NCBI RefSeq assembly: GCF_035083965.1
Contig: NC_089726.1
Location: 21,498,559 to 21,562,558 of the forward strand
Source: Branchiostoma lanceolatum
Lineage: Eukaryota > Chordata > Leptocardii > Amphioxiformes > Branchiostomatidae
Direction of reading: 5' to 3'
Length of the DNA: 64,000 nt
The position numbers were made by a program, and so were the translations under genes. Under the pieces are notes generated by a model that saw only the letters and a list, made by a program, of their open reading frames with translations, ran no database searches and had not been told where the DNA came from. Positions 7,280-61,790 of this stretch are shown here, one piece after another; the first letter of the stretch is position 1, and each line of letters opens with the position of its first letter.

Positions 7280-9115
7280 ATGTCCGAGTCTCGTCCGAGC
7301 CGACGTTACCGTGAATGGGTCGAGGACGACGTACAAAACGCTTTACGCGAAGTACGACTGGAGCAAAAGTCTGTTTATGCCGCTTCAAAGGCATACAATT
7401 TGCCAAGAAGTACTCTAGATGATAGATTTAAGGAGAGACACGGAGACAAGGTCGGAAGAAGAACAAAATTGGAGCCGGAGGACGAGGAGACCCTCGTTCG
7501 ATACAGCATGTACATGGCAGGTAAAGGTTTTCCCCTTACTGCTGGTGTAATGAAGGTGCTGGCGAAGGAGATCGATAAAGAAAGCAGCAAAAAGAGGGGA
7601 GAAGATCCACGGTTTGGCGGGAAAACACCCGGTAAGAGATGGTGGAGTGGGTTCCGTTTGCGGCACCCACAGATATCGCTGAGGTCTCCTGATCGTCTGG
7701 ACAGGGCACGCGCAGCAATGTCCAATCCTAACACTTTCAGTAATCACTTTGCCAAGCTAGATGAGCTGTTGACAAAGCACAGCCTTCACCAGCGCCCCTT
7801 CTTAGTATATAATGCAGACGAAACCGGGATGGAGCTTGACGCCAGGCGGTCACGCGTCGTAGTGCCGACGGCATCAAAGCGGGCCCCCGCCATCAGGTCA
7901 GGTGGCAGAGACCACGTCACCGTCATGGCATGCGTTTCCGCCGCAGGGGCGGTCCTCCCTCCAATGGTAATCTACGACAAGAATTTACCTTCAGGGAGGT
8001 TTAGCGAGGGTGGACCGCCCGGGGCCGTGTACGCCCACTCTGCCTCAGGTTTTATTAATAGAGAGCTATTCCAAGACTGGTTTTTCAAAATCTTCGTCCC
8101 ACATTGTCATCAGTCCCGACCTATACTACTCCTACTTGATCAACACACGGACCATCTGTCTCTTAATGTTCTCGAAGCTGCCCTCGCCCAAGACATCATT
8201 ATTTACGGACTACCACCTCACACTTCCCAATGCACTCAACCCCTGGATGCAACTGTATTTTCCTCTCTGAAGGCCAAATGGTCCAAAACGTTGGAAGCCT
8301 TGCAGGTCGCAAGCCATTCCTTCCAAGTGAAGAAGAGCAACTTCGCAAGAATATACAGTTCTGTTCAAGACGACTCTTTCACAGCAGACAACATCAAGGC
8401 AAGCTTTGCCAAAACCGGGGTACTTCCGTTTAATCCGAAGGCCCTGGACAAGGTTTGGATGAATATGACCTCCTCGACCGGCTCTGAGGCGGGACCGTCG
8501 ACTTCAAGTGAGGCGGGACCATCGACCTCTACAGTTTCGACCTCACAGGCCCCCCACCAACCAGTGTGCACGTCGTGTGGGAACACATTTGACAATCCGG
8601 TTGTCAATAGTTTAGTCCCTCCGCATCTACGGAGCATCTTGAGGACCGTTACAAGTGTTGCAAAACAGACGAGACGAAAAAAGCTGGTGGCCCGGGTGTT
8701 GACCCATGAAGACGTCATTAATGATCTTAAGAAGAAAGAGGAGGAAGAGAAACAGAAAAAAGCAAAGGGAGAAGAGCGAAAGAAGAAGGCAGAGATGAAA
8801 AAGGCCGAGGAGGAGGAGCGAAAGGAGAAGGCAGAGAAGAAAAAGGCTGAGGCGGAGGAGCGAAAGAAGAAGACAGAGAAGAAAAAAGAGAAGAAGCACA
8901 AAAGACAAGGAAGCAAAAGAAATGGAGAAGGAAGAAAAGCGGAGAGAGAAAGAAGGAACGAAGAGGATGAGGGAAGGAGAAGACGACAAGAAAGAAAATG
9001 CAGAAAACCCCTCGAAGCGGAGAAGGATCAAAAAATGAGTAGAGTGCTACGATCGACTATGATTAGTTGTTGTAAGTGTGGTAAAACTGACGAAATTGTA
9101 CGAGTAGGCATGTAA
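7280..9115 (+). CDS. Tigger/pogo-family DDE transposase (intact, 611 aa)
   Basis: It catalyses cut-and-paste transposition. An N-terminal pipsqueak-type helix-turn-helix (about residues 12-50, SVYAASKAYNLPRSTLDDRF) is followed by a CENP-B/Tc5-type DNA-binding region (about 60-145). The DDE nuclease then carries Asp180 in YNADETGMELD, Asp287 in LLLLDQHTDH and Asp323 in QPLDATVFSSL, so all three catalytic acids are present. A C-x-x-C-G motif sits near residue 435, followed by a long Lys/Glu-rich segment that probably forms a charged helix, and a CCKCG motif near the end. ATG at 7280 is the natural start because the pipsqueak domain begins about 10 residues later. There are no stops or frameshifts, so it is recent or conserved. 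A paralogous, broken relative lies at 54662-56343. A domesticated host gene is the alternative, but the TIRs around it favour a transposon. Confidence 0.92.
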   Translation: MSESRPSRRYREWVEDDVQNALREVRLEQKSVYAASKAYNLPRSTLDDRFKERHGDKVGRRTKLEPEDEETLVRYSMYMAGKGFPLTAGVMKVLAKEIDKESSKKRGEDPRFGGKTPGKRWWSGFRLRHPQISLRSPDRLDRARAAMSNPNTFSNHFAKLDELLTKHSLHQRPFLVYNADETGMELDARRSRVVVPTASKRAPAIRSGGRDHVTVMACVSAAGAVLPPMVIYDKNLPSGRFSEGGPPGAVYAHSASGFINRELFQDWFFKIFVPHCHQSRPILLLLDQHTDHLSLNVLEAALAQDIIIYGLPPHTSQCTQPLDATVFSSLKAKWSKTLEALQVASHSFQVKKSNFARIYSSVQDDSFTADNIKASFAKTGVLPFNPKALDKVWMNMTSSTGSEAGPSTSSEAGPSTSTVSTSQAPHQPVCTSCGNTFDNPVVNSLVPPHLRSILRTVTSVAKQTRRKKLVARVLTHEDVINDLKKKEEEEKQKKAKGEERKKKAEMKKAEEEERKEKAEKKKAEAEERKKKTEKKKEKKHKRQGSKRNGEGRKAERERRNEEDEGRRRRQERKCRKPLEAEKDQKMSRVLRSTMISCCKCGKTDEIVRVGM

Positions 9116-19100: not shown

Positions 19101-22100
19101 GTAAGTCAGCACTTTTTTCTCTTCTTATCTGTAGGTCTGCAGTTTTATGTGAGCGTCGCAACAAGTGTGTTAAACCAATATGTTTTTGCCGTCGATGTGT
19201 CCTCTTAGATTTGAATAATTGATCATTGATACTTCAGGAAATCTGATCATCCAGATTTGTGTACGCGTATGTCTTGGCCGTCTTGTGAAGTTTTAACGGT
19301 CTGTAATACAGTAAATGGTCTTTTGTATGTAACGTTGGGTAACATAAATTCGTCATTTTTCCGATAATGGTTCACTGAAATCAATCTAGCAGAACAATAA
19401 ACCATCCTTTTTTTCTATTATTCTGTCAGTATCATGTACTATCTTTGCACTAATCACATATATGGTAGATATTGTCTCTAGTCGTGCTGACACCATAATA
19501 TTTCAACTTGAAACTACCGTCCGTCGCACGCACAATGACGGTGTTGTCGGACAGGTGTGAACATTATTTCGGGAGAGAAGATTCGTCTTGAATATCTTAC
19601 CGCTAATAACATTTTATACAGTAGCTATTCGTTCCATCCTTGGCTTGAGGAGAGTGCTATGGATATAGACGTGTCCAAGTAAAAAAAATACACGAAAAAA
19701 CGGCCGTACCGCACACATCAGGCTAGTTCGGGAACAACCCGTGTGTTGAGTCGGTAGAACTTCACTCAAAGTCGGCCCATCGTCATCATCGGGCAACGTG
19801 TAACGTTACATTATTCATGGAAAGTTAGCTGGATGCCGTAGCAATGGCAATACTACGATGTCCATGTGTTCCTTGTTGTGTTAGGAGCAAACTTTGAGGA
19901 AAATATCTTCCTCAGTCCACTATCACACGCAACATTTAGACAAAAAAGTGTTCCTCACAAACCTTTGTCGTCTGCTTGACAACAGGATTCTGGTTAACAA
20001 TATGGCGGCGGGAAAATACACGTGCCGCAGGTTGTAGCAACAGAGAGGAGTTTTTGTGATTGATCACACTTAGAATCCAGTTGCAGGTTAGCAAAAGAGA
20101 TTGTAATAAGTTGTCTTGTAAATAATTGTGTTTAGCAGGAAGCGGATGTGACATTTTTCTTATAAACCAGCCGACAACCATGTTGTGTAATTCTCCCACG
20201 AAGCCCTCAGACTGTTCCAATAAGGGACGGAGAGTTTTTGACCTCGTCGCCTTCTAATGCATGCTTATCGAAGCTTTTCAGACAGTGTTCTGAATACGTT
20301 AGTCTGTCAGGTTTGCATTTCTAGCGGTATTACTTATGTTGCATCTAGCACATATCCCTAAATACCCCGTTTTCGAAAAATCGCGAATTTAAGTACCCCG
20401 CGAATTTATGTTACCCAACGTTACGTCTTTTGTCTAACATGAGCGAAACAAGCGTTAAGCACTCCTCACACCAAACTCTAATCGATAATGTCGCAACAGC
20501 TTTTTTTACAGCATTTCAATTGACATTATTACTTGATGTCTCAGTTTATTCAACAAGAAAGCACCCAGGCGTAATAGGTAGAAGATTGATGACAATTGTA
20601 TCCAGACGTTCCCGGAAGGAATGTTTAATTGAAAGGCAAATGGATTCACGCCGTGCAACAACAAAGTCAATTACTGTCAAGGGGCAGCACTGAGGTTAAG
20701 ATGTGTTCATGTCGCTCCCAAGCAGAAATTATTGTGTTCATGGCATACTAGTGGACGAAAAAAACCCGCTATGAAAGTTTGTCCTCAAATATCTTCTTGA
20801 AAATCACATACTTAGGCATCTACCCTTGCACAGGCAGTTTTATTACACGGGCGTGCGTAGCGTGTATATGTATAGTTCAAGTAATACTTCGTTTACGCCT
20901 GAGCGAGTTGGCATAGGCGCGTTTCCATTGAAATGTGCAAAAAACCGTTGTCAGTCTTTGTCATACCCGTATTCCACTGGGGTGGCGACCTCGCTGCGAC
21001 CGCGCCGAGACCTAAAATTTTAGAGTGCGCCCAACGAATTTTACAGATTAAAAAAACCTAATATTTTATTATGCCTCTTGTCTTCTGTTGTCTTTTCAGT
21101 CATTCTTTTACATATTACATGAGTTTCTCAATTATGAAGTCAATGTAAGGATTACACATTTTCCATCCGAGGCCCGGCCGGGCTGTTGCGGAAACACAAA
21201 ATCAAAGCGTATCTCAATGAATATGCACAAGCAATGCTCTTAAATAATGTTTGGTACATTTTGTGCCCTTCGTTGCCTTTTATATCATACTTAACACTCC
21301 CAGAGACTGGCCGGCCGGGCCCCGGTTCGGAAATGTGACCCAAGCATAAGGTCGCAGCGAGATCTCATCGGGAACGACGTTGAGTGGATATGAGCCGGAT
21401 AACCGGATTTGTCTATCCTTGATTTCATAAATGGAATTATGGCATGGCTGAAAAGACAGTAAAACACACAAGTCATGAAAAGATTAGTTTTTTTTTCTAT
21501 GAAATCCGTTGAACGCTCTGTTGAATTTTGTCGCAGAGAGCGCGCGGCGAGAGCGCCGTCCTAGTGGAATGGGGATATAACGGAAGTTACGCCTGTCGCA
21601 AAAAAACACGTTATGCTGTGTCTTCAACCAATAATAACGCTGTCGTTCATTTTTGGTAAGAAATTGAGGTGTTAGGGTAAAATGAAGAAAACAACGATGG
21701 TGTCAGACTTTCAACCATACCAAGTTGTAAAGACTGGCAACAGTATTCAGCACATTTCAGCGAGACCGAGCCTGAGGTCTGATGTTTTCTTACAGAACCT
21801 TGAAGAAATTCTGAAATAATTCCAAAGTAGCGTGAATAATACACAATATCTAAAACAACTATATATTGGAAAAATATGCTGCCCGCGAGAAACCCCTTAC
21901 TATCAACTTCGTAGACTTTGAAAAGGCATTCGATAGCGTTCACAGACCAACATTGTGGTCAATACTTCGGTACTATGGCATCCCCGAGAAACTAACACGC
22001 GTGATTAAGGAACTCTACAACGGGTGTGAGTGTGCGGTGAGGCTAGACGGTGGTGACCTCTCAGAATGGTTTGGTGTCGTTACGGGAGTACGACAGGGGT

Positions 22101-34100: not shown

Positions 34101-37100
34101 ACTCTAGCTCCTTTGTAGCTTGATTCGGTTGATTTGGACTGGTGTTTGCATTGATGACTCAAATTACTAAATTACGTTGTTGGATTTCGTGATATGTGAT
34201 ATTAGATCACAGAGATGAGATTCGTGTTACTCAATTATGTGGTTCTCCTAAAACACGTGATCACCATCTAACGTCCTATCCAAGGGAACTCCCTAACCGA
34301 AGCTAGGTACGATTTAGTTTTTCCACCTACGTGAAGTGAGGGGATTCGTGCTAAGTGCCTGTCCCAAGGGCACAACATCGGGACATGCCTAGGGTTTGAT
34401 TCCGTACCCTTTTGATTCTGGGCCAAACACTCCAACTATTACGCTATACGACGATTGCATTAGTGAGACGACTGGGTCCACCGCCATCAAAAAGTGTGCG
34501 CTTGCGTTTATGTTGACCTAAGACGTAACTTTCATTACTTGTCAGGTAAAGAGCTGAAATATATGCAATACACACGTATCTCCTTAATTGATATAAACGT
34601 CTTCTAAAATCTTTATATATCTAAAGCAATGAACAAGTAGGCAAAGTATGGAAACAAGTTAAGGCTGACTAGAGAAGTACTTCAACAAGTATGAACCAAT
34701 TAGCATCTTGCCTGTAGTCTGCCTTGTCACCCCAAACTTCGTTCAAAGCCAACTATATGTGGATCAATCCAGGGCCATACCAGGGCACTCATCATATCCA
34801 TGAGGCATGAACACAGCTACATGTAATTATGGGCAATCGTTGTGCAGCCACGAGCGCATAAGTGCAAGGTTTATTGATAGACGTATGACCCTAGATTGAC
34901 CCACAGTGGATTCAACCCCGCGGAAAGAAAGGTTTACAATTCACCCCGCTGAAAAGCAGCATGGAGTACACGGAAATACCTTGTTGCTCGTCATATTAAA
35001 CATATTCGGTGCTCTTTCACTGTGCAGGAAAACATCAAAGTAAGACACAAGTTTAGGACACAATTCAGAAAACGTATGGATCAAGGATGATATTCAAGTA
35101 CCGCGCAAAGAAATGCTGACTTCTTTAAACCTCCTCAACCTTTTTGATAACATGTAAACAATGAATAGACAATGTATCCATGAATATGTGTTCAATTAAA
35201 GTTAATTTTCCATCGGATTTGTTTTTGATACGTTTCTGAGAAAGAGTCCGTAAAGTATGGGAACAAAGTCAGGGCTGACCATGCGCCAAAGAACCGCTTC
35301 AACAACTAAGTGAAAATCTGCCTCCTGCATTTACGTAGTTTCAGAGCCCCGAGGGTCATGTAATTACCGGGAATCGGTTTGAAGCTACGAACGCCAGAGA
35401 GTTAAAAGGGATACGATTCATTGATTTGTCCAAGGCTTTCGATAAACCGAAAACCTTTAAGATACATACGTGTAGGTATAGCACACCTACCTACCTACAT
35501 GTACCTACCTAGTCCCTTGACCTCCGGGTCGTTGGGGGGGGGGGGGGGGGGGGGGGCTAACACTTAACGACAGGCAGTAAATTTCTAGCGAGGTCCAATC
35601 AAATGGCTGTTAGCAGGTCACCGAACGTCACCGACAATTAGCCAATGACGGCCAACAAAGCCAGTCCTTTAAAATGCAAAGTAGGCAATTAACGCCAATC
35701 TACTGGCACGCGATGGGCAAGAAGGAATATTTCACACCCTTTGTCCGTCGATTACTGGTTCATTGTTAATAGCGGCAATACATTACGAAGTAACTTTTCG
35801 TGTGACTTGCAGCACATGACTTTTAATCCTGCTTATGTAGAGCAGAACTACGCACTGAACAAGTTTTAAACATCGACACGAACTGACTACACAACGCCTT
35901 ATATTTGATAATGCAGTATAGCCATAACGCCACGCTTCGGAGAGAGCATTTTAGTATCTTTAGCATGGTTAAAGTTCTAAGCTGTAGCACTTCGTATCAT
36001 GCATTTTCTTTAAATTTTATGTATGGAAATAATGTTTGGTGATAGACAATGTGACATACAAAACTTAACATTTATTGCCATCAGAAAATACAGGGAAGTA
36101 ATGTCGCTTTCGTGTTTGGCTGACAATAGTCTGCGCCTGTATAGATTCAAAGAAAGGTAAGTATACAGTGTCGAAGGAAAAACAAAACTAGATGCATAGG
36201 TAATACATAATATAATAAACAAAAGCGGGTTTATCGGCTCTTTTGAATAATGCCATATGCCTGCGACTGGCCCATCCCAGCGTCATGGCCGGTGAATCAA
36301 AGACGCGCCGCTGTCGCACTCTGGATTCGTTCTTAGGTGACTTTGCCGGAAAATCCGTTCAATGTCTTCTCACGCCGGCAGTCGGTGATTTGGGGCCTCA
36401 CAATGTGCCACAAAATCCTGACCCAAGACCAGCTTGGACTTGATTTCCCTCCATTTCTGTACGCGGCCCGTCTTTGAGAGCTTGCTTTTGGTGGGAAATG
36501 TTGGGTCGACTCGAAGACTTTCACCCTCGTCGGGATCTATTCCCTCCCGCAATGACCGCTCTATTAGCGCTAGTGCAGCGCCATTGAAGCTGTAAAACTT
36601 CATCTCTTCAGTCTCTTCGCGTTTTGGTGGTGAAAGTTAACTTTACAAACTGATAGATCTAGATCTAGATGTATACGTATGGAAGTAGTGGGAATAACAA
36701 CTGAAAGGCGCTTGGTTTGAGTTGATGACATTCACATAAGACCAGGGGTGTTAACAAGCCAAAACTCGACCGTCATTGGCTAATTGTCGGTGACGTTCGG
36801 TGACCTGCGAGCAGCCATATGATTGGACCTCGCTAGAAAGTTACTGCCCGACATTTAGTGTACACGGGGGGGGGGGGAAAACAAGGTAGCACACAGGGTA
36901 CGGTAAGTAAATTTACCTTCCAGAAAGGCTATATTGGACTGCTATTACCGCGCGTACCGGAGTAAATTCTGCTTTAGACCAAGTGAAATTTGTGGGTACC
37001 ACAAGGCTACATATTTGGACCCCTGTTGTCAGTAACATTGCTGATGATCCATGGTCTAGATTTGTCCAGTCTGATTTAGAGAATGCATATGGCATGTTTA

Positions 37101-40100: not shown

Positions 40101-41322
40101 TTTTTTGAATTCAGAGTACCAGTTTGGTGACTTCATGTGTCGGCTGACAGCACTGATCCAGGGTCTGTCTGTGGCAGCCTCCGTCTACACACTGACCGCT
40201 ATAGCTGCGGACAGGTCAGTATGTCTCCAATCCGCTTCAACATGTACATAGATCCACAAAGTCAACATATATATGTTAAAATTTAGATGTTCATGGTGTA
40301 TGTTTTAATCATCACCATATTTGCTTCAATAGCTATATCAAGTATAAGAAGATTATGTCGTTTCTATATTTTGCTATGGTTTCAAACAGGTGCTCGGCTG
40401 GGTAGTCTACGGCTAAGAAAAGTATCATATAAAAGATAAAAAACACACAAAACATCAGCAATCATGAGCATAATTTGTGTATATTTCTTGCCATACACTT
40501 ATAATTTTCGTTCCCACAAACACCGTCGCCGGGCTCCGGTTTGGAAATGTGACCGTTGCATTATGTGGTCAATTTGTGTTTGATAGATACAAGGCAATCC
40601 TGTACCCGCATGATGGTCCGATGAACATGGCTACCATGAAGAAGGTTCTGGTCTCTATCTGGGTCGCCGCTCTGGTGGTCATGGTTCCCCAGGTCTTCGT
40701 CATCCAAGTCCGGGACAAGATGATTCAAGGTCAACCAATGGACCGATGTTTTGAGGTCTGGCCGGACCTAGTGTACAAGAAGATCTATTCCGTCACAGTG
40801 GTGTTGCTGATCTACATCTTGCCGCTCATGGTGATGAGTTTCCTGTACATGCGCATCGCCGAGAAGATCTGGTTCCAGGCAGGTCTCCAGCAAAGAAACA
40901 ACAGCGACAGAGACACCGTGCGAAGGAGAGAGTTCATCGGCTCTGTTCCCAAGAGGCGGAAACGCGTCATCAAGATGCTGATCGTGGTGGTGACGCTGTT
41001 CATGATGTCATACCTGCCGCTCTACACCTGTTGGATGCTCGATGAGTTCGGCAACATGCCCCTTTGGCAGGTGAAAATTGTTCACCAATACGTGTACCCG
41101 ATCGCACACTGGCTCAGCTACTTCAACAGCTGCGTAAACCCGATCGTGTACGGACTCTTCAACCGCGATATTCGCAAGAACGTGGACTGGGGCAAGTTCA
41201 GTCTGATGACCCGCAGCACGATCATCACCGACACCCGCTGCCGGTCCAGGCGGAGGGAGAACCACCAAGCACCGGCCGATCACATCCGTAGCGTTGAGGT
41301 ACAGATGGAGACGGCTCTATAG
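18773..41322 (+). CDS. Neuropeptide FF/SIFamide-like GPCR (three exons, 387 aa)
   Basis: A rhodopsin-type receptor for a secreted neuropeptide, acting at the plasma membrane. The exons are 18773-19100, 40115-40214 and 40587-41322 (328 + 100 + 736 nt, in frame). The seven-helix pattern is complete. There are N-glycosylation sites NIT (residues 8-10) and NAS (26-28). TM1 has GN at 62-63, TM2 has [10 protein letters not shown] (Asp91), the TM3 cysteine is 118, DRY is 142-144, the ECL2 cysteine is 197, TM6 has SYLP and TM7 has [42 protein letters not shown] and IYPIAHW-like [13 protein letters not shown] resemble neuropeptide FF receptors most. Intron 2 splits the Arg of DRY, a position I recall from several peptide-receptor genes. 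Intron 1 is 21 kb and packed with mobile DNA. Orexin- and QRFP-type receptors are the main alternatives. Confidence 0.85.
19110..20960. other. GPCR intron 1, proximal part: nothing recognised
   Basis: No exon-like or repeat-like stretch was recognised before the element at 20966. Confidence 0.4.
20966..21590. mobile_element. MITE-like element, family M1 copy 1, with a nested element
   Basis: The left end (ATTCCACTGGGGTGGCGACC region) and right end (GAGAGCGCCGTCCTAGTGG, 21550-21568) are diverged inverted repeats of one another. Both are flanked by GGGTA-like ends. The interior from 21400 to the right end closely matches 27380-27571, the second copy. A second inverted-repeat element is nested at 21155-21341. 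Confidence 0.6.
21155..21341. mobile_element. Nested MITE with GGCCGG-rich ends
   Basis: The left end ACATTTTCCATCCGAGGCCC and the inverse of the right end, ACATTTCCGAACCGGGGCCC, match over about 25 bp including a shared CGGCCGG core. The element interrupts the surrounding M1 copy, which resumes at about 21342. Confidence 0.55.
21866..23008 (+). mobile_element. 5'-truncated non-LTR retrotransposon (LINE), frameshifted
   Basis: The reverse-transcriptase core is clear: [19 protein letters not shown], then [18 protein letters not shown]. The catalytic ADDLALLG box is in a different frame (from about 22208) after a small deletion that removes the residues before the two aspartates. The thumb and C-terminal part ([33 protein letters not shown]) returns to the first frame, and the last conserved stretch ([20 protein letters not shown]) is in a third. 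There are therefore at least three frame changes. The 3' end is a GATGAT microsatellite at about 22980-23000. Clade is unresolved (RTE- or I-like by tail and C-terminus). The 5' part with the endonuclease is missing. It lies in intron 1 of the GPCR gene in the same orientation. Confidence 0.85.
23034..23193. repeat. 160-bp inverted-repeat element next to the LINE tail
   Basis: The left arm (ACATCCATCACTCTTCTTCG ... GAACTGGCAGAA) and right arm (TTCTGCCAGTTCATC ... GAAGAGTGATGGATGT) pair over about 48 bp with few mismatches around a 60-bp loop. It begins about 25 bp after the LINE microsatellite tail. It is probably a MITE; no clear target duplication was found. Confidence 0.75.
23200..24495. 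other. GPCR intron: nothing recognised
   Basis: Short chance frames on both strands; no domain or repeat identified. Confidence 0.4.
24500..24780 (-). pseudogene. LINE 3'-end remnant
   Basis: On the minus strand, broken frames carry text resembling the last residues of a LINE ORF2 ([23 protein letters not shown]). A 3' UTR follows and ends in an A/T-rich AAATAAAACTCAAACTC tail at about 24505-24525. Two or more stops interrupt it. The assignment is from layout and weak motif likeness. Confidence 0.4.
26318..26386. repeat. (ATC)n microsatellite
   Basis: About 20 CAT/ATC triplets with a few ATT interruptions. The apparent poly-Asp frame on the minus strand across it is a repeat artefact. Confidence 0.95.
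27341..27571. mobile_element. MITE-like element, family M1 copy 2
   Basis: Shares the interior and the right end (GCGCGCGGCGAGAGCGCCGT, then CCTAGTGGAATAAGGGTATA) with the element at 20966-21590. The left end carries an inverted GTCCACTAGACGGC. This copy lacks the nested insertion and is about 230 bp long, so it gives the likely unit length. Confidence 0.6.
27580..32760. other. GPCR intron: long stretch with only small repeats
   Basis: No exon is recognised. A C-tract lies at 28147-28160, and TTTG repeats at 30420-30445. A segment at 29100-29185 (minus strand CCTGATGAAGGC ... GAAATGTCGATG) resembles termini of an unidentified repeat. The open frame 28532-28810 has no recognisable domain. Confidence 0.4.
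28879..28934. repeat. 7-bp tandem repeat (TATATTG)n
   Basis: About eight near-perfect copies of TATATTG, followed by short ATCAA repeats to 28965. Confidence 0.95.
32770..33000 (-). mobile_element. tRNA-derived SINE, copy 3
   Basis: Minus-strand layout as in copy 1: a GC-poor tRNA-like head near 33000, then GCCTTGGGAAAGATATTTAA, the TCACTTCACTCGGATG segment, and the GGACGTCCCTCGGATAGGGA body, extending into GAGCCACACTTCGATCACG. The longer 3' body is preserved best here; a relative of it also lies at 15722-15775. Confidence 0.65.
34000..34480. repeat. Duplicated ~470-bp block, copy 1
   Basis: Matches 38625-39090 in the same orientation over its whole length, starting ACAGTTGCCAGTAAAAGCAC and running through GCTTGATTCGGTTGATTTGG and the SINE to the ACGACGATTGCAT edge. 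Differences are scattered substitutions and a few short indels. Confidence 0.85.
34262..34460 (-). mobile_element. tRNA-derived SINE, copy 4 (inside the duplicated block)
   Basis: Minus strand: TATAGCGTAATAGTTGGAGT is an A-box-like head and GGAATCAAACCCTAGGC lies where the B-box is expected. TTGTGCCCTTGGGACAGGCA and the TTCGGTTAGGGAGTTCCC body follow. Confidence 0.65.
35534..35556. repeat. Poly-G tract (23 G)
   Basis: An uninterrupted run of 23 G directly next to the left end of the TIR element. A second run of 12 G (36866-36877) lies just beyond its right end. Confidence 0.95.
35559..36862. mobile_element. 1.3-kb element with ~105-bp terminal inverted repeats
   Basis: The left arm (35559-35663) contains TTTCTAGCGAGGTCCAATCA, GGTCACCGAACGTCACCGAC and AATTAGCCAATGACGG. 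All recur inverted at 36758-36862 with about 85-90% identity by eye. The interior holds one protein-like frame on the minus strand (36370-36603). The superfamily is unclear: a TA or CTAA-like duplication at the edges is possible but not certain. Confidence 0.75.
36370..36603 (-). pseudogene. Possible N-terminal exon of a transposon protein
   Basis: A 77-aa frame begins [20 protein letters not shown] and contains [20 protein letters not shown], a basic, helix-rich composition. It is the only protein-like frame in the TIR element and is GC-rich relative to its flanks. I do not recognise the family. Without a nuclease domain nearby, the element is either non-autonomous or the frame is a captured exon. 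Confidence 0.35.
36880..38620. other. GPCR intron: nothing recognised
   Basis: Short frames only, without recognisable domains. Confidence 0.4.
38625..39090. repeat. Duplicated ~470-bp block, copy 2
   Basis: Second copy of 34000-34480, 4.6 kb downstream in the same orientation. Confidence 0.85.
38905..39085 (-). mobile_element. tRNA-derived SINE, copy 5
   Basis: Copy inside the second duplicated block, with the same orientation and layout as copy 4. It has a short deletion in the AAGTGAGGAGATG segment, so it arose by duplication rather than by new insertion. Confidence 0.65.
39868..39968. repeat. 101-bp near-perfect hairpin
   Basis: The left arm (39868-39918, GACAGCATACGACATTGAAG ... TTAGATTGAGC) and right arm (39919-39968, GCTCAATCTAA ... 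CTTCAATATCGTTTGCTGTC) pair along nearly their whole length with almost no loop. It lies 147 bp before GPCR exon 2. It could be a palindromic MITE or a structured RNA; no target duplication was found. Confidence 0.85.
40115..40214 (+). CDS. GPCR exon 2 (ECL1, TM3)
   Basis: The acceptor is TTCAG|AG after a T-rich tract. The exon encodes [20 protein letters not shown] through AADR, including the TM3 cysteine. The donor is ACAG|GTCAGT. The 100-nt length keeps frame from phase 1 to phase 2. Confidence 0.88.
40587..41322 (+). CDS. GPCR exon 3 (DRY to C-terminus)
   Basis: The acceptor is TTTGATAG|ATAC, with the first base completing the Arg of DRY. The exon encodes TM4-TM7 and a tail of about 60 residues. 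Codon use is strongly GC-rich compared with the introns. The TAG stop is at 41320-41322. The open frame upstream to 40477 is intron. Confidence 0.9.
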
Positions 41323-43026: not shown

Positions 43027-44043
43027 TAAGGGCAGCTTAGTTGACTCGTGAAATTTTTCGTGAAATCTGGGCAGTCTTGGGGTTGATATGGTAGGAAACC
43101 CTATCGAGGTAGTAGAGTGATCGTCTGTCTGCTAATGGAAGCCTGAGGGGAAAATACAAGAGCTCTAGTTAGGAAGTTGATTTGTAGAGAAGATTGAGCC
43201 GCATAATTTTGCGCCAGATTTCCCGCAAGGGTCGAGTTAGATGTTAGAATATTTTGTAACTAAATTATAGGTGTCGGCCAATCAGCTACCGGAACTTTAT
43301 CTCTTTATATATATTTTAGCTTGCCGGCAGATATTTTCTGTAGGACACATCGACTGATTTTGATACTTATGTCATGAGGTGCCAATTCATCTTAGTAATA
43401 CAATGGCCACAGCACGTACATTTTATGTATGGATGACATCTGCTCCCATATTGCTTTAAATTTTTATTGCTTTTTATCTCATATAGATTTTCAGAAAATA
43501 ATAAATTCGTCATCTGTACATTTCACCTGCCGTGGCCTAAGATAAAATCAAACCTAAACAGTAACATAGGAATTAGATCAAGGTTAGAATAAAGGTAGTT
43601 ATAATGATAGCCATGACTGTCCCTAATGCGTTCAATGATGGTACTAAAGCGCCGACTAATGATTCGTGGCAGTATTTCAGCCTCGGAACTGTCGAAAGTT
43701 TAAAGGTTGCAGTACTGTCACGAATCATCAGTCGGCACTTCAGTACCGTGATTTAACGCTCAAGGGGGAACCAGTTGACTCCGATTAAATGCAAGTTTTA
43801 ATATATTAAACACCCGTTCTTGATGAGTTTTTTTTCGTGACATCTAGGCAGTTTAGTTGTTGCTATGGTAGGAAACCCAATCGCGATAGCGGAATAATCG
43901 TCTGTCTGTTTCTTGGAGCCTAAATAACCATTCCAAGTCCTTTAATTTGGTTAGGAGGTTTGTTTGTAAAGAAAAATGCGCCACGTTTTAGCCCCTGATT
44001 TCCCCCAATGGTCGAGTTGAATTTTAGACCTTTGTGTAACTGA

Positions 44044-44760
44044 CACTGCACGAAATGGCCTCGTTTCCCGGCGTATACGTACCGGTATTTTTCTGTATTT
44101 GTGTCGGATACTGACGGATACTGACGGATACATGCGGATTCGTGTAAGATATCCGACAATTTCCGCACCGGTATATGGAATATTTCCGGAAGAATCCGAA
44201 AGTAAGGTATTTTCGACGAATACGGAGCCGTACACTGCACGGAAATGCCACCGATCCTGACGGATACGAACAGGAAATTTTCTGTATTTTTGGCGGATAC
44301 TGACGGATCCGACTAAATGCGCACTGGGATATGGAATATTTCCGGAAGAATCCGAAAGTAAGGTATTTTCGACGAATACGGAGCCGTACACTGTACGGAA
44401 ATGCCACAGATCCTGACGGATGCGTACAGGGATTTTTCTGTATTTTTGGCGGATACTGACGGATACTGACGAATCCAACCTAACGGATCCGAAAATTTCC
44501 GCACCGGGATCGGGAATATTTCCGGAGGAATCCGAAAATGAGGTATTTTCGACGGATACGGAGCCGTACACTGTACGGAAATGCCAGAGATCCTGACGGA
44601 TACGTACAGGAAGTTTTCTGTATTTTTTTAAAGAAAATTGCGGATACTGACGGATACAAGCGGACTGTGATCCGGAACCTCAGATCCGGAGGAATACAAA
44701 AATAGGAATTTTCGACGGATATGGGGCCGTACATTGCACGAAATTGCCCAAGATCCTGAC
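44044..44760 (+). repeat. Left subterminal repeat array
   Basis: Five units of about 155-190 bp. Each begins with a version of the terminal sequence (CACTG(C/T)ACGGAAATGCCA) and continues GATCCTGACGGATACG and TTTTCTGTATTTTTGGCGG. Chance frames across it repeat the same residues and are not genes. Confidence 0.85.
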
Positions 44761-45437
44761 AGATACGTACAGTATGTATTTGCCACGGATACAGACTGAT
44801 CCAACATACAGACTTTCTACAATCTTTGACATATGGTGACTCTGAATATGTTTGTATTTGCCACGAATATGTACAAATCAAACACACAAAGTTTGATAGA
44901 ATGGTTGATTATTCATAAATACGCGTGCATTCTTAATTTAACGATACCCAAAACATTATTATTCAATGACAGGAAGTTTTGGGAAAGCCTGAATGTAACA
45001 TCATTTCATATTTCAACATATATGCATTTCTAAGTTCAAAAACTATCAAATACAATACGGAAGTTCTATGTGGCTAAATAATCCATTTCGTTTAAGACAG
45101 GCCGAGGGACATCCACATACTCAAAGCACCTCTGCATATGCAGGTTAATGTCGGTAAATTGGGGTTGTGTAAGCACAATTGTTATAAAATGTATTACAAT
45201 TAACAACCACATCATGGTGGTAATATTTACTGCCGTATAGTGCACTTGGACCAAAAATTTCTACATGTTCTACATATTCTACTAAAGTAATGAAAGCCTT
45301 ATTTGTGGCCAGTTCTTAGTCTAAAAGATATCAGATACAAATAATTTCAAATACAGAGGTTGAAAATAGAAACTTCAAAGTAACATTATACTGTCTGAAA
45401 AACTCCCATGATGACACGCCACATTTTACACGTAAGT

Positions 45438-45966
45438 AGTATATGCCGTGGAACTGCATGTGTATAATCGTCCTCTCCCCATTCTATGACTACATCTGAG
45501 TTCACTTCTTCCATGCACTCTTGGTAAGGTACAGGCAAGGCTGATTTCTTCTGTATCTAGCATGTTGGACTCAGCTTGGAGTTCATCTTGTGATGAACCA
45601 GTTCCTATATGATAAAACCAAATGATGAATAAATATCAATTCACATACTTAGTATTTAAGTAACATGTCACATGATTTTGACATAACTGTGATCAAGGAG
45701 GTTATATAGACTATATAACCTCCTTGCTGTGATGGGCTTCGTTTCATCACAGCAGCTAACAAAAAACAAGGGACAATGGGTATCCATCATGCCTGTCTCA
45801 GCTAACATTGAAGTGTACCGATGATGGACTTAAGCCTTACCGAAGGAGCCTGAGGTACTCTGAGCATCTGACAGCTGATTGCTTTGTTCCAAGCCAAGCT
45901 AAGGTCCTCACAACATGTGCTGCATTTGTGAAGGAAGTATCTGCCGATGCTGTATAGGATATATAT
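45438..45966 (-). other. Exon-like pieces inside the CACTA element
   Basis: On the minus strand, a frame of about 37 codons (including NAAHVVRTLAWLGTKQSAVR) is bounded by CTATACAG| (near 45952) and TTCG|GTAAGG (near 45838). Downstream, a second frame (CMEEVNSDVVIEWGEDDYTH) follows a pyrimidine-rich AG near 45520. They look like captured or decayed exons. No family was recognised and they may not belong together. Confidence 0.25.
45694..45726. repeat. 33-bp perfect palindrome flanked by 7-bp direct repeats
   Basis: The arm CAAGGAGGTTATATAG, a single A, then the exact inverse. CTGTGAT occurs immediately on both sides (45687-45693 and 45727-45733), like a target-site duplication. Confidence 0.85.
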
Positions 45967-46739
45967 AAAGGGAATCAATGACAAATATTAAGCATATCAC
46001 ATAATCACATTTGTAAAAAATGATTCTGGCATCGTTTAATTGAATACGTAAAACTTACATTCATAACTTGAATATGATATTGATCAAACAAGTACAGCTA
46101 CAACTTAATGCAATATTCACTGAAACACACTACTACCTCAACATAAGTTCCAGCTCACTATCCACAAACTGTGGGACCTTTGTGGGACAAATACTTATGA
46201 CATTCTCTTCCGTTACAGGATATCTTTAATTATCTTTCCCTCAATCGCTTGCTATGTTGTATCTAAAACGTTAACCAGACACAAATGTCTGTTGACCATT
46301 GGCAAGAACGAACAAATTGAAAGCTATAAATTTCCTAGATCCTAACGGTGTAGAAGTGCAGGTCGACTGGACAATTCTTAATGTCATGCAAATGCGATGA
46401 TATGTCAAGCCACAATAGGAGGATAACTGACGTTCAAACTAGTTAGAAACAGGAATTTTCCAATTTGTACTTACCAAAGGGCAGTCCCTCTAAATGATGA
46501 ATCGACTCCCTACCAACTTTACAAGGGGGAGGGGGGCGACGAATATTGCATGCACGAAGAAGACTACTTCGCAATGCCGCGCGTTTGAGTTTACACCGAA
46601 TCCCCTTCGACTCTCAAGTCACTAAAAATCACTGGTCGACCATGGTAGACTCTGACGATGCCATGTTAAGCACAGAGAGTGATGAAACGCCGTTCTTGTC
46701 TCCGTGCTGTTCACCGACAAAACCGTTTCTCGCGCCTGA

Positions 46740-47565
46740 CGTCATGACACGCAGTGTCTTGTGGGAGATTGGACACGAATCCGTATTCCGGAAACGTCAG
46801 GATTTGTCGGAATTGTTGGATCTGAGGTGCATCGGATCCAATCGGAAACGTTCCGTATCTGCTATGATGCACGATTGCGGATCCGCTGGATTTTTCAGGA
46901 TCTGAGATCATGCCGTGCAGTGTGTATTTGTTGGTTAGGATCCGAAGCAACTACCGACAAACAAACAATCATTAATCGTATATCTGCCATATTGACAAAT
47001 ATCTGAAAACGAAGGATCCGCGCAAATATCCTCAGGTATCCGAGGCGCATCACGGATCCAGACGTATACGGCGTCGGAATTGCCGGATCTGAGCTGTACC
47101 TGGTATTTGTCTGAATTTGCTCGGAAACGTTCCGTATCTGTACCCGAAACGTATGAAGGATCCAGACGTATACGGCGCCGGAATTGTCGGATCTGAGGTG
47201 CATCGGATTCAATCGGAAACGTTCCGTGTCTGCTATAATGCATAATTCCGGATCTGCTGGATTCGTCAGGAAATGAGATCATGCCGTGCCGTGTGTATTT
47301 ATTCGTCAGGATCCGAAACAACTGCCGACATACAAACAATCCGAACATTCCAAATATAAAAAAACGAGGGATCCGCACAAATATTTTCGGGTATCCGAGG
47401 CGCATCACGGATCCAGAGGAATACGGCGTCGGAATTGGTCGGATCTGTGGGCACCTTAGTATCCGAGCAGTGAACTGGGATGTTTCCGGATTCGCTCGGA
47501 AACGCCATGAGGCCCGATTCCGAATACGTCGGATCCGTCAGGATACGTGGCCATTTCGTGCAGTG
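46740..47565 (-). repeat. Right subterminal repeat array
   Basis: Inverted counterpart of the left array. TIR-like GTGCAGTGT words recur near 46918 and at the end, with GGATCCG, GGAAACGTTCCGT and CGGAATTG(T/G)CGGATCTG words repeated three to four times. Confidence 0.75.
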
Positions 47566-47993
47566 TGAACTATAGGTGTCGCTATTATACGCAATCAGCT
47601 ACTAGATATTTTTCTTTAAATGTTTTAAGCCTGCTCCATGGCAGATACCATCTGCACGACACATTGACTGATTTTTTTCTGTTTATGGCCTGAGGTGTCA
47701 CTTTATCTTGATTAGTGACACCATTGCCACAGCACGTACATTTATTATGGTTAACATCTGTCCTCATATTTCTTTTTTATTACCTTTAACTTCATATAGA
47801 AAAAAATGATAAATTTGTCGTCTGCAGAGAATGACATCTATAAGTTTTACCGGCCGTTGCCTGAGATAAAATCAAACCTTAACAGTCACATAGAAATTTG
47901 ATAAAGGTTAGAATAAAGATTTTTATGATAACAGCCAAGACTGACCATGAAGCGTTTAATCATGGTAATAAAGCGACGACTAGTGATTCGTGG

Positions 47994-48141: not shown

Positions 48142-48577
48142 ATTCGTGGTGGTCTTTCAGTCTCAGAACTGTCAAAAGTCTCAAGGTTGCAGTACTGTCA
48201 TGGATCGCCAGTCAGCGCTTCAGTACCGTGATTACACGCTTGAGGAGGAGTCGGTTGACGCCAAGTAAAAACAAGGTTTATACCATTATAGATCCATTCC
48301 TGGTGAGTTTTTTTTTTTTTTAAATTTGGGCAGTCTAGACTCTAGGGGTTGCTATGGTAGGAAACCCTATCGAGGTAGTGGAATTATCGTCTGTCTGCTG
48401 TTCCGAGCCTGAGGAACCAATCCAAGAGCCCTGATTAGGGTTTATTTGCTGAGGAGATTGCGCCACATTTTTTTACCCCTGATTTCCCGCGATGGTCTAG
48501 TTAAGTTTTAAGACATTTATAAATAAATTGTTGGTTTCTGCCCATCAGCTACCGGATCTTTTAAGTACTGGTTTTAG

Positions 48578-50151
48578 ATGAGATTGTGAAGGAGATAATG
48601 GACTGTGATGAACAGGTAGTTGTAACATATTCTCATGATGGCTCCAAGAAGCAAGGTGCTGGCTCATTCTCTGTGCAAGGGATCACCGTGAAAGGAAGAT
48701 ACAGGTCACTTCCCACATTGAGCATTGTATCAGAGTCTAGACAGAACCTGGCAGACCTAAAGGTGGCGATGCTACAGATTTTGGAAGCAGCAAGCGGTGT
48801 TGCCTCAAAAACCCTGTTTGAGAAGATTGACTTCGTCATAACAGATCAGACATCTCACAATTTCAAAGTTGATGAACTGGTAGCAGAGAGTTTAGAGTCG
48901 GAGCACATCCCTGATCATCTGTTCTGCAATGTACACCCAACCCTGATGTTCGACCGTGTCATCACCAAGCTGTGGGCTGATATAGAGAACACTTTGGGTA
49001 GAGACAAGATCTACTCCAACTTCTTGGTCAATGCGACAACATCGGCATCAAGTGTCACCGAACAAGCCCTTGACTGTATGACTCGGCTGATAAATCATGA
49101 CTTTGACCACAAACCATGGAACAAATCTCGTGACTTCGATATTCACATAGCGCCACGACCAAACAAATCTGTGAGTCTGAAGGATGAGCGATTCAATCGT
49201 TTGACTCTTACCTGTGCTATCAGTTTGTACCATCTGAATGACGTAGCATCTTTCCTACGTAAGTATGAGCATGTAACCAATCAGCTAGCATGCATAGTGC
49301 GGCGCTTCTTGGACCTGGACTTCTTGAAAGTAATGTACTGTGTTGGTGCCCTTATCGGTCTCCATCTAGTTGAACCGTTTCTGTCGCTGACTACCTCTGC
49401 CGAATCAACCTATAGCAAGATCATCCCAGCATTCCAGCACTTGTACCAAGAACTGATGGAGGTGAACCCTACCACTCTGCTACAGACAGAAGAGCCAGCC
49501 TTCAAGTTCATCTCGAAGGAGAGGTTCCAACAGACAAAGTATGACAATGAAATCTGCAGCGCTATTGTCCAAGTAGCAACCACATACCAGTCTGAGGTGA
49601 CAAGGCTACTGAGAATGCTCCTCCCCAAGCTAGCCACTTGCTTTCAGAAGCAGAAGGGTGACATCTTTGGCTTTGGAGAACATGACGCGGCTGCACAGCA
49701 CTCCGTCACACAGATGGATAAGGAGAAGTTGGAGAAGGCACCAATCCATAACTTGGATGCTGAGAGAAGTGTTGGCTTTGTGAACTATGAACTGTCGAGG
49801 AGAGGTGCCAAGCAGCTAAAAGTTGCCTCAGCCGCACAGGTGAAGGCCAAGTCTTCTGATCTCATAGTAAGAAGAGAACCTGGATCATTCAGAAACTTCA
49901 GCAAGGAAGCCAGGAAAGGAGGCAGGATTCCAGAGATTCTGTTGGCGTGGGAGAAAAAGTAAGAGGAGCTTAAGAAGCAAGGAGTCAAGGACAAAGAGAT
50001 TGCAAACGTCGCTGTTGATAGGCGGAGAAACAAGGACCTGCAAACCCTGAAAAACATGGGCGGACCTTTCACGACTGCAGCTGAAGTTGATACGTATGTG
50101 GCAGCAACTGATGCTGATGATACCACCAAGTTGGGCCGACTATATCTAGAG
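48578..50151 (+). pseudogene. Transposase-like exon of an uncharacterised invertebrate family, with one premature stop
   Basis: An exon open from the acceptor GTTTTAG| (48577) to the donor GAG|GTAAGG (50152), except for one TAA at 49960. The first part (ATG 48586, 458 codons) reads VVVTYSHDGSKKQGAGSF, then DFVITDQTSHNF and, about 20 residues later, HLFCNVHP. D ... D followed by C-x-x-H resembles the RNase-H fold with insertion seen in hAT/MULE-like transposases. The end has NLDAERSVGFVNYELSRRG, like the Glu-bearing C-terminal block. After the stop the same frame continues as EELKKQGVKDKEIA ... MGGPFTTAAEVDTYV ... LYLE. From memory such proteins are multi-copy in marine invertebrates. A GTAAGA donor at 49957 could instead end the exon before the stop. 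Confidence 0.6.
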
Positions 50152-54059: not shown

Positions 54060-54660
54060 ACAGAAATGTTGTCTTGTAATGTTAGCCACACCACAGAATT
54101 CGAAATACACCTGTCCTCATGGAACATAAACATAAACTTGGATTATTACCAGCTAAGGGGAATATTAATTGAACTTGATATTGATGTACAAGGATTTTGC
54201 TCACTTTGACTCACAGTAACCTCAGTTTTTTTTAATGTATTTTAATTGTATTTTCCATTACCATGTCGGTTTGATGTAAGCTTTACAAAGTATATAATTT
54301 TATGGTAACAATACACAAACAAAACAGATTCTTCAGTTATAGTACAATTTTTGTGTGCAAAACATCATTCTATGAAGCTGCTGCTGTTAAAAGTTCTGCT
54401 AGCCTAGCCCCACCCTAGCAGCTGATGGTTGAATTAAATGCATTGCTCAAATGATCTTCATTACAGCAAGTTTCTTTCTTGTGTACGTGAATAGATTATA
54501 ATGGGTGTATTACTTTGAGCCATTTGGAGATGGCGAGTCCGAACAGACTCTCTATGATGAAAACTGTAAGGCCGGCTAACTTTCTGCCAATTTTTACTCC
54601 AAGCTTCAGTTCCCCACAATAAAGTAAGATAACTTGCTGGGATCATAAGAAAATTGAAGA
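54060..54660. other. No gene recognised upstream of the second transposase
   Basis: A short ATG frame at 54530 (MASPNRLSMMKT) ends at a possible donor GTAAGG (54566). It would join ITCWDHKKIEE by removing about 60 bp ending AAAGTAAG|. This would supply a missing N-terminus but is speculative. Confidence 0.3.
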
Positions 54661-54661
54661 A

Positions 54662-56343
54662 GTGCTGAAAGAAGTTCATAAGAACAATCTGACACCAGCA
54701 AAAGCAGGGAAAAAGCATGGAGTACCGGAAAGTACTGTACGTGACAAGTTATCCGGAAGGAGTGCTATCGATGCAAAACAAGGACGACCATGTATCCTCA
54801 CCAAAACGAAGGAGGAAAGTCTTGTCTTCTACATTAAGTATCGAGTCGAAAGGGCATTTCCAATAAACAAAAAGACGATTTTAAGTCTGGCACTACAGAT
54901 ACATCTCAGACACTGTAAGGAATATGACCTGAGTCCAAAGGTAGACCCAAAGAAAGGGTTCAGTCGAACATGGTGGAAGCGGTTCAAAAAAAGAAACAAG
55001 TTGACAATACGTAAACCAGACCCACTTGATAGGGGAAGGCGGAATGCTGTGGATAAGAAGGTAATTCAAAATCTCTTCACAATGTTGACATCAACAATGT
55101 CCAAGAATGGCTTGACCAATCAGCCGCACCGAATCTACAACCTAGACGAGACAGGGTTTGATCTGGATCCCCACAAGAAAAAGGTGGTAACCTTTACAAG
55201 AATGAGTGCTCCGGCTGCCTCTGTTAGGAAGGGTACACGGGATCACATTACATCCCTTGAGTGTATATGTGCAGATGGATTAGTTCTACCACCTCTCATT
55301 ATTTTTCCAAAGCGTTTCCCAGTACAGCATACCAATTTGAAGGACCTACCAATGCACTGTATGCTACAACTAAGTCAGGTTTTAAAGGGTCTGATATTTT
55401 CCTTCAATGGCTGCAGAAGTGTTTTGTAAGATTCTGTTCAGCTGAAAAACCGGTACTTGTCGTAATGGACCAACACAGCACACATGTAAACCATAAAGCC
55501 ATTGATTTTGCTGTGAAGAATGACATTATCTTACTGGGTCTACCACCCCATGCTACTCATTTTTTGCAACCACTAGATGCCCCTGGGGGTCCATTCATTA
55601 GACTGAAAGACAAGTTTGAGGACGTTGTGAACAACATAAGTATGGCAAAGCCAAACTTCTTTGTCTCGAAAGCATCATTCCCTAAAATCTACAAAGTTAC
55701 TAGAGAAAAAAGCCTCACTATGGCATGTATCAAAGCAGGATTCAAAAAGTCAGGTTTATATCCTGTAAATGAAGCTCAGATAAATGAGAGGTGGCTCAAG
55801 TTGAATGAAGTGAGTTCAACAAAAGGAGATGGCGAAGAAGAAGATGCAGATCTAGAACAAGACGAAGAAAACTATGACCTGCTCCCTGTAGAAGAAGAGG
55901 TGCTTGAGATGGCAAAGGGTGTAGCTGAGGCTGAAGAACAGGAAGAAGACAACAGCCGTGTACTTCTAGACATAGAAGAGGAAGCGCTGCAGATGGCAGA
56001 AGAAGCAGCCAGAAGAAGCCTTTGTGGTAAAAGAAAGGAGAAGGTCCCAAGTAGTTCAACACAAACACCCTGTTATGCTTGTGGGGGAAATATTGGACAA
56101 AAACCAATTGAAAACCCTTTCGTGAAGGCAGGCATTGTGCCGCCCTATGTCGTTGACATACTTCAGCCAATACAAGAATCAAAGCAACGAAAAATATTGA
56201 AACCCAAGGCACTCGTCTTTGATCGAAAATATCACGATGAGATTAGAAGAAAAGAAGAGGAAAAAGAGAAACAAAAACATGAGGAACAGATTAGGAAGAA
56301 AGAAGAAAGAGAAGAAAAGAAGAGAAAAAGATGCAAGAGGTAG
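54662..56343 (+). pseudogene. Second Tigger/pogo-type transposase, frameshifted
   Basis: Domain order as in the 7280-9115 protein: pipsqueak helix-turn-helix (LTPAKAGKKHGVPESTVRDK), a Tc5-like region, and a DDE domain with YNLDETGFDLD (first Asp at 55145), VVMDQHSTHVNH and QPLDAPGG. A C-terminal C-x-x-C-G motif (TPCYACGGNIGQKPIENP) and a Lys/Glu-rich tail are shared with the first copy. The reading frame changes at about 55305-55330: the first frame runs to 55429 as unrelated text, and the second (open from 55261) carries the matching sequence. The N-terminus has no ATG in frame before the helix-turn-helix. Terminal inverted repeats were not found. It is clearly older than, and diverged from, the intact copy. 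Confidence 0.85.
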
Positions 56344-60500: not shown

Positions 60501-61790
60501 AGAGAAGCTTTCAGGACACTGTCCACAGAGAAGACATCAGCAAACTTGTACAGGTCCACACAAGTGGAGCGCTCCACGTTCATGGCCATGTAGCTGCTGC
60601 AGGTGTCTTTCACATTGTCCAGTTGGAGGAGGTCGGCTGCCTGATACAGGGGCTGCACTTTGTCCAGGGACACATGGAGGGTTCCCGAATAGATGTAACT
60701 CAGGATCTCCCAAAAGATGCCTGCATCCAAACCCTGCAGAACGATAAAATATAGATGTTCAAACCTTTATCAAATACATATAGCAAGGAAATATATCGGA
60801 ATACGGAATACATACGATCCATTACGAGAAACATACGAGTTTTAATTACGGAATACATACGATCCATTACGCGGAATACATATACGATCCTTACTAATTT
60901 GTTGGCGTCGCGCAAGCACCGAATCTAGCTTTGTCTGGTCCCCCTCGTTGGTCTTAACCTACATCAGTCTAAATTTACATTACTTGAGATTTTTAGAGTT
61001 AAGCCGGATGGGATACGCCATTATCAAGCACTTTAAAAGCCAAGATTTCGTACGAAGAACGAATTATCCCGAGTCCGCCATCGGTCATGTCATATGACCC
61101 AACAAATAGTAAGGATCGTATGTATTACGCATGATGGATCGTATGAATTCCGTAAAATTCGTACCATTCTTAGTAATGGATCGTCTGTATTCCGTAAATC
61201 TCGTATGAATCTCGTAAAATTCGTATGTTTCTCGTAACGGAACGTATGTATTCCGTAAAACTCGTATGAAAACTTTGTTACCCTGTTATATAGACTGGTA
61301 AAAGATTTGCTAATTTTCCCCGGCAAAGTTGACCTTTAATCCCTTAATACCAACAACATCTCAATAAGTGGGGAGGGGGCACGGGATACACATGCATCCT
61401 CAAAAGAAAGCTTTTACATTTTGTTGGTTCGCGAAAACAATGGGTTTCCCTGCTTTCCATGTTCTCTATGATACCTTTTATCTTAGGTAGTTCCCTGTTT
61501 CACTCTATTCCAACGACACGTTACACCAACCCTACCTGTAAGACAACCGTCTTCTGCCGACTCTCCGCCATGTCATTTGTAAACATGGCCCTGAAGTAGG
61601 GGCTGGCCGCGGACAGAACAAGCCGATGGCAGGGAAACCGCCGGCCCTCGACTTCAAGGATGACATCCTGCAGTACTCCAGCCTTCTGTAAGTCGCTCAC
61701 AGTTCCAAGAAACCCGTGCAGATAGCTCTCGTCTTGGTACGAACGAGGACGAACAGCGCTGGCGTGGGTTTCTTGGTCTGCGGCAGCCAT
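57549..61790 (-). CDS. BTB-BACK-kelch (KLHL/KBTBD-type) protein, five exons, 599 aa
   Basis: Family members act as substrate adaptors of cullin-3 ubiquitin ligases. The exons are 61536-61790, 60473-60733, 59070-59209, 58757-58960 and 57549-58488 (255 + 261 + 140 + 204 + 940 nt, all GT-AG and in frame). The BTB domain (about residues 35-140) has [29 protein letters not shown] and YIYSGTLHV. The BACK domain (about 140-250) has [20 protein letters not shown] and [11 protein letters not shown]. The kelch part (about 295-590) shows at least five blade signatures such as [36 protein letters not shown] and [11 protein letters not shown], with few double-glycines, so the blades are diverged. ATG at 61790 is the first in frame, 34 residues before the BTB. 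Length is normal. I cannot tell which paralogue group it belongs to. Confidence 0.92.
59340..60450. other. Kelch gene intron 2: AT-rich, unusual TTC/GAA-rich text
   Basis: Between 59480 and 60120, TTCTAACA, TTCCAACA, TTCAAACATGTTC and GAACAATTT words recur irregularly on both strands. No clear unit or coding frame. Confidence 0.4.
60780..61275. mobile_element. Inverted-repeat array in kelch gene intron 1
   Basis: The left part (60790-60895) repeats CGGAATACATACGATCCATT and CGAGAAACATACGAG. The right part (61105-61270) repeats the inverse (GGATCGTATGTATT, TCCGTAAAACTCGTATG, TTCTCGTAACGGAACG) at least four times. Inverted subterminal arrays around a 200-bp centre suggest a non-autonomous DNA element. 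Exact ends were not found. Confidence 0.6.

Follow-up and report, generated by a model that had tools for sequence, protein, structure and literature searches.

A CACTG-ended, apparently non-autonomous transposon with copies of its terminal repeat in its subterminal arrays in an amphioxus genome

One of three tandem copies of a repeated unit in the genome of the amphioxus Branchiostoma lanceolatum is interrupted by 3,522 bp of mobile DNA in which no gene can be recognised. This raises the questions of how the element came to lie there and to which of the known kinds of transposon, most of all those with CAC...GTG ends, it belongs. We examined it within a window of 64,000 nucleotides (the whole stretch of contig NC_089726.1 that was analysed), and all positions given refer to that window (Table 1).

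Ends, target site duplication and uninterrupted sites

The first 17 bp of the element are the exact reverse complement of its last 17 bp, and the match stops at base 18. Outside these terminal inverted repeats (TIRs) lie the two copies of the target site duplication (TSD), TGA, with C before and A after. Because the TSD ends in A on the left and begins with T on the right, an 18-bp match (ACACTG...CAGTGT) can also be read; this would leave a single-base duplication of G and was ruled out, since the uninterrupted site in flanking copy A, described below, fits best with three bases removed.

A search for paired CAC[AT][AG] ends lying no more than 15 kb apart, with at most 2 mismatches in 14, returned 12 pairs; the element's own pair had no mismatches and the other 11 had 2 each, one of them joining the element's left end to a TIR copy inside the right array. 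The window contains several clusters of perfect inverted 17-bp repeats with a partner no more than 5 kb away (the others lie at about 19.3-20.4, 22.9-26.4, 23.0-23.2, 35.6-36.8 and 60.8-61.2 kb), and only the element's begins with CACT. In 200 first-order Markov shuffles, the mean number of perfect 17-bp pairs was 0.05, and none began with CACT. The window is rich in transposons.

The insertion lies in the middle copy (B) of three tandem copies (A, B and C) of the flanking unit, which blastn aligns in pieces of more than 350 bp at ~68 to 73% identity and in shorter pieces at 76 to 88%. Joined with one TGA left out, the two flanks align to both A and C, and neither alignment has a gap where the flanks meet. 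To measure the length of the duplication, we removed 0 to 8 bases from the joined flanks and scored ungapped identity over 41 positions. Against copy A, 29 of the 41 positions matched with 3 bases removed and 19 to 22 with the other eight lengths (21 with 4 bases); against copy C, 21 matched with 3 bases removed and 18 to 20 with the other lengths. Copy A clearly supports a duplication of exactly 3 bp, and copy C supports it weakly. The trinucleotide at the target is TAA in copies A and C and TGA in copy B. We concluded that the element had inserted into one of the tandem copies, with a duplication of 3 bp at its target. The original prediction, made from the sequence alone, had named perfect 17-bp inverted ends starting with CACTG, a 3-bp TGA duplication and an uninterrupted copy A from which the length of that duplication could be read, and it was right on each of these points; copy C, which it did not mention, is a second, weaker empty site.

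Directly after copy C, on the plus strand, lies a 465-aa open reading frame (ORF; 48565-49962) for which Pfam (E 0.01) and solved structures (E 1) gave no match and viral contigs no relative. Inspection by eye suggests a possible transposase, and the tandem flanking units may be part of its element.

Table 1. Positions of the element and its parts in the 64,000-nucleotide window
Feature	Position	Strand	Description
Whole element	44044..47565	.	apparently non-autonomous; perfect 17-bp inverted ends and 3-bp TSD
Left TSD copy, TGA	44041..44043	.	sequence and empty-site comparison
Right TSD copy, TGA	47566..47568	.	sequence and empty-site comparison
Left TIR	44044..44060	+	CACTGCACGAAATGGCC
Right TIR	47549..47565	-	inverted, identical to left TIR
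Left subterminal array	44044..44805	+	four units (189, 156, 180 and 163 bp), then 74 bp of a fifth; inner limit by eye
Internal TIR-like copy L2	44233..44249	+	14/17 to TIR
Internal TIR-like copy L3	44389..44405	+	13/17 to TIR
Internal TIR-like copy L4	44569..44585	+	13/17 to TIR
Internal TIR-like copy L5	44732..44748	+	15/17 to TIR
Interior without recognisable gene	44806..46770	.	GC 38%; no CGGAT or ATCCG
Right subterminal array	46771..47565	-	inwards from right end, two units (272 and 371 bp), then 150 bp of a third; inner limit by eye
Internal TIR-like copy R3	46906..46922	-	13/17 to TIR
Internal TIR-like copy R2	47277..47293	-	12/17 to TIR
TAA, uninterrupted site in flanking copy A	43261..43263	.	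alignment and removal test
TAA, uninterrupted site in flanking copy C	48524..48526	.	alignment; weak in removal test

Other parts of the window hold two ORFs with rhodopsin-type receptor domains, along with BTB and Kelch sequences, reverse transcriptases and transposase domains. One of the two ORFs, a receptor fragment at 40474-41322, has neuropeptide FF receptors as its best solved relatives (E 3e-32). Transposase-like ORFs lie on the plus strand at 7280-9115 (DDE_1, with HTH_Tnp_Tc5 below the cut-off) and at 54623-56343 (HTH_Tnp_Tc5 just above the cut-off); the latter region goes on in another, overlapping frame from 55261. Further long perfect inverted-repeat pairs, perhaps DNA transposons, are found at 35582-36839 and 19329-20424. 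At 60784-61285, ~500 bp of inverted arrays of CGGAATACATACG-type repeats with CAAGG/CAGGG ends are flanked by ACATATAG and TTATATAG, equal at 6 of 8 positions; this is possibly a hAT-like non-autonomous element. A 47-bp minisatellite (13.8 copies, 90% matches) occupies 544-1196.

Subterminal arrays and interior

Every unit of the left array begins with the TIR or a TIR-like copy. When we scanned both strands of the whole 64 kb for the 17-mer with at most 5 mismatches, we found 14 places, 8 of them in the element (2 terminal and 6 internal) and 6 elsewhere in the window. The internal copies are degenerate, and each points the same way as the end closest to it (4 of 4 on the left, 2 of 2 on the right). 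Shuffling of the arrays, with the terminal TIRs left out, gave no copy in 75 of 100 trials and a maximum of 2 in another 100, compared with the 6 observed. The outermost copies (L1 and R1) are identical at 17 of 17 positions; internal left and internal right copies agree at 10 to 12 of 17. The base before all 8 copies is A, which at the two terminal TIRs is part of the TSD; this shared base may be due to chance or may be recognised. With six internal copies, the predicted reuse of the terminal sequence by arrays on both sides is well founded. Units containing the TIR had also been called striking, and here the prediction was somewhat overstated: the units are present, but tandem repeats in TIRs or subterminal regions had already been proposed to contain secondary transposase-binding sites, in passages of a study that calls the trait convergent among transposons (PMC3573991).

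The arrays are also crowded with the motif CGGAT/ATCCG, which occurs 25 times in the left-hand 762 bp (17 on one strand, 8 on the other) and 22 times in the right-hand 795 bp (11 on each strand), making 47 in 1,557 bp, compared with 0 in the 1,965-bp interior. Outside the element, 53 copies are spread over the other 60,478 bp of the window (0.9 per kb). The ratio of observed to expected CpG is 1.62 and 1.51 in the two arrays, against 0.67 for the interior and 0.77 for the remaining window, and the CG inside the motif accounts for part of the raised ratio in the arrays. On the minus strand, the arrays contain ORFs of 212 and 200 aa, lengths that were each reached by 1 of 300 shuffles; the one in the left array extends beyond the element into the flank, and the one in the right array lies inside the element. 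We ascribe both to repeats of an open frame.

Comparison of the units over their first 150 bp suggests that the arrays grew largely within each side, since identity is 71 to 80% among L1 to L4 and 81% between R2 and R3, as against 61 to 66% between left and right units. The partition is not a clean one, as R1 is no closer to R2 and R3 (60 to 65%) than to L1 to L4 (63 to 65%). Over its first 40 bp, R1 is 80 to 82% identical to all five left units and 68% identical to R2 and R3, and L1 is 80% identical to R1 and 70 to 75% identical to L2 to L5. The terminal stretch thus has a history of its own, in keeping with outer ends that are kept the same. The partial unit L5 scores only 40 to 44% against all other units over 150 bp, a low value that reflects its length of 74 bp.

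The interior contains no ORF above chance, its longest stop-to-stop frame being 90 codons, compared with a median of 89 in 300 shuffles, and no Pfam family reached its cut-off in any of the six interior frames (the Pfam scan took in these six frames and one frame of the left array, with most of the right array in none). The sole Pfam row for the interior up to E = 1 was SSAP_Sak (E 0.081), which we rejected as a chance match, its 12.9 bits lying below the cut-off of 22.3. The minus strand of the element has six sequences resembling splice donors; two of these contain GTAAG (at 46474 and 45840) and suggested exons of a hidden gene in the interior. Inspection by eye found no frames joining across the donors, and this candidate was also set aside. 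The interior may still contain a captured host gene or the remnant of a transposase, although none was recognised there. Because the interior yielded neither an ORF above chance nor a Pfam match, the element looks non-autonomous.

The interior also includes a perfect 33-bp palindrome (45694-45726; CAAGGAGG...CCTCCTTG) with 16-bp arms around one central base. It is directly flanked by the 7-bp repeat CTGTGAT and resembles a very small nested insertion.

Assignment to a transposon group

The ends, the TSD and the arrays of this one insertion point to a non-autonomous cut-and-paste transposon of the CMC supergroup (CACTA, Mirage and Chapaev), a membership that we regard as highly probable. Within the supergroup, the CACTA type is the most likely, and we hold it to be probable. 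Both gradings are judgements and not computed values. The features typical of CACTA elements, as given in sections of one paper (PMC10741241), are CACTA or CACTG ends, short TIRs (mostly <50 bp) and a 3-bp TSD. In line with CACTA termini (CACTA or CACTG at one end and TAGTG or CAGTG at the other), the amphioxus element runs from CACTG to CAGTG with a perfect 17-bp TIR; its TSD is 3 bp (TGA, from one insertion, with empty site A clear and C weak); and its subterminal repeats are two-sided, all 47 of its CGGAT/ATCCG motifs lying in the 1,557 bp of arrays and 0 in the interior. What may argue against a CACTA-type element is that animal TRC members of the CACTA superfamily (SmTRC1 and Spongebob), which resemble ours in their animal host and CACTA placement, differ in their ends and in TSD length: in the portions of the two reports available (PMC1636069, PMC4298943), they have CCC ends and a 2-bp TSD (in SmTRC1, a 2-bp repeat in 7 of 14 copies), compared with CACTG and 3 bp here. 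The prediction of a CACTA-type element in an animal is thus sustained by the ends, the 3-bp TSD, the two-sided arrays and the host, and falls short in that no transposase was recognised in the element.

We doubt that the element is instead a non-autonomous Chapaev or Chapaev3 transposon, which would also belong to CMC and have CAC...GTG ends and would be moved by a Chapaev-type transposase. Chapaev elements in the strict sense have a 4-bp TSD, and a duplication of that length fits copy A worse than one of 3 bp (21/41 against 29/41). Parts of a Chapaev paper (PMC4079192) are more accommodating, giving the group invariable CAC/GTG termini and a TSD of generally 3 to 4 bp. The Chapaev3 elements in it (Merrow, Garfield and Conan) share with ours the CAC...GTG ends, the 3-bp TSD and an animal host, but their TSD was TWA between A and T in all those examined there, whereas our one insertion has TGA between C and A. 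In favor of Chapaev3, the paralogous sites carry TAA, a TWA trinucleotide, and the A before all 8 TIR copies would be expected at the ends after insertion into a TWA target. The terms "subterminal" and "tandem repeat" are absent from the main text of the same paper.

It is improbable that the CACTG start is a coincidence and that the element comes from a different superfamily whose insertions duplicate 3 bp (PIF/Harbinger, Zator, Academ or one not yet described). Zator and Academ do make 3-bp duplications, and an element with no recognised transposase could be accommodated there, but CACTG ends together with two-sided arrays point to CMC. PIF/Harbinger elements duplicate TAA or TTA, according to sections of PMC10741241, and here the duplication is TGA. 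Even less probable is a Foldback or Galileo-like element, the main feature of which would be long, internally repetitive inverted ends. Duplications made by the P element are longer, at 7 to 8 bp, and the 3-bp duplication makes this reading unlikely. Galileo, a Drosophila element classed with the P element, does have tandem repeats in its long terminal regions that are unequal in number and length between the sides and are proposed to contain secondary transposase-binding sites, as excerpts of PMC3573991 describe; it differs from ours in superfamily and in that its described repeats sit inside long TIRs, and the two amphioxus arrays match as inverted copies only in part (61 to 66% between left and right over 150 bp).

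Searches beyond the window added little. The TIR pattern had one match in viral contigs, a non-eukaryotic collection, which we took to be due to chance; the contig has only 3 CGGAT/ATCCG motifs in the 580-bp terminal stretch that contains the match. An internal TIR variant had 0 matches in viral and 0 in prokaryote contigs, also non-eukaryotic collections. In full-text literature, TIR strings occurred in 79 papers, and none of the 25 titles listed among them concerned transposons.

Possible route of movement and comparison with known elements

If the element is a CACTA-type transposon, a transposase supplied by an autonomous relative elsewhere would bind the 17-bp ends and move it in trans, and the clustered CGGAT-type and TIR-like sites of the arrays would be putative additional transposase-binding sites that aid recognition of the ends. 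The transposase would excise the element and join it to the target with a 3-bp stagger. The arrays would grow by tandem duplication of end-proximal DNA, the TIR included, mostly within each side, and the outermost TIR copies would stay identical because cutting is confined to them and requires that they match. A different role for the internal copies, namely that they, each following an A as the outer ends do, are usable alternative ends and give the family a ladder of nested termini for its movement, seems to us rather unlikely. If it were true, the transposase would pick among several cut sites and leave shortened or one-sidedly trimmed elements, and the arrays would be in part captured former ends, not binding sites alone. 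Subterminal units that contain the TIR suggest, from this one copy, how arrays at transposon ends grow.

Set beside known systems, the element is a well-defined but rather typical representative of a transposon type already described, with a neat arrangement of its ends. CNIRT6 of Cryptococcus, a CMC element, has 24-bp TIRs that likewise begin with CACTG, and its transposase falls among those of fungal, plant and animal CACTA elements; unlike ours, it is ~7.5 kb long and carries a transposase gene, as stated in portions of its description (PMC12810828), the main text of which does not use the word "subterminal". An autonomous relative of the amphioxus element, if found, would help to place animal CMC elements. 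The present clean insertion in an animal combines CACTG ends like those of plant elements with a TSD of 3 bp, as opposed to the CCC ends and 2-bp TSD reported in extracts for animal TRC elements. Close to it, too, are plant CACTA/En-Spm elements, which have CACTA or CACTG ends, short TIRs, a 3-bp TSD and subterminal repeats that, in passages of one source (PMC8978399), span several hundred nucleotides of closely spaced direct and inverted copies. The amphioxus element differs from them in its animal host and in having no recognised transposase, and the TIR copies inside its subterminal units may be a further difference.
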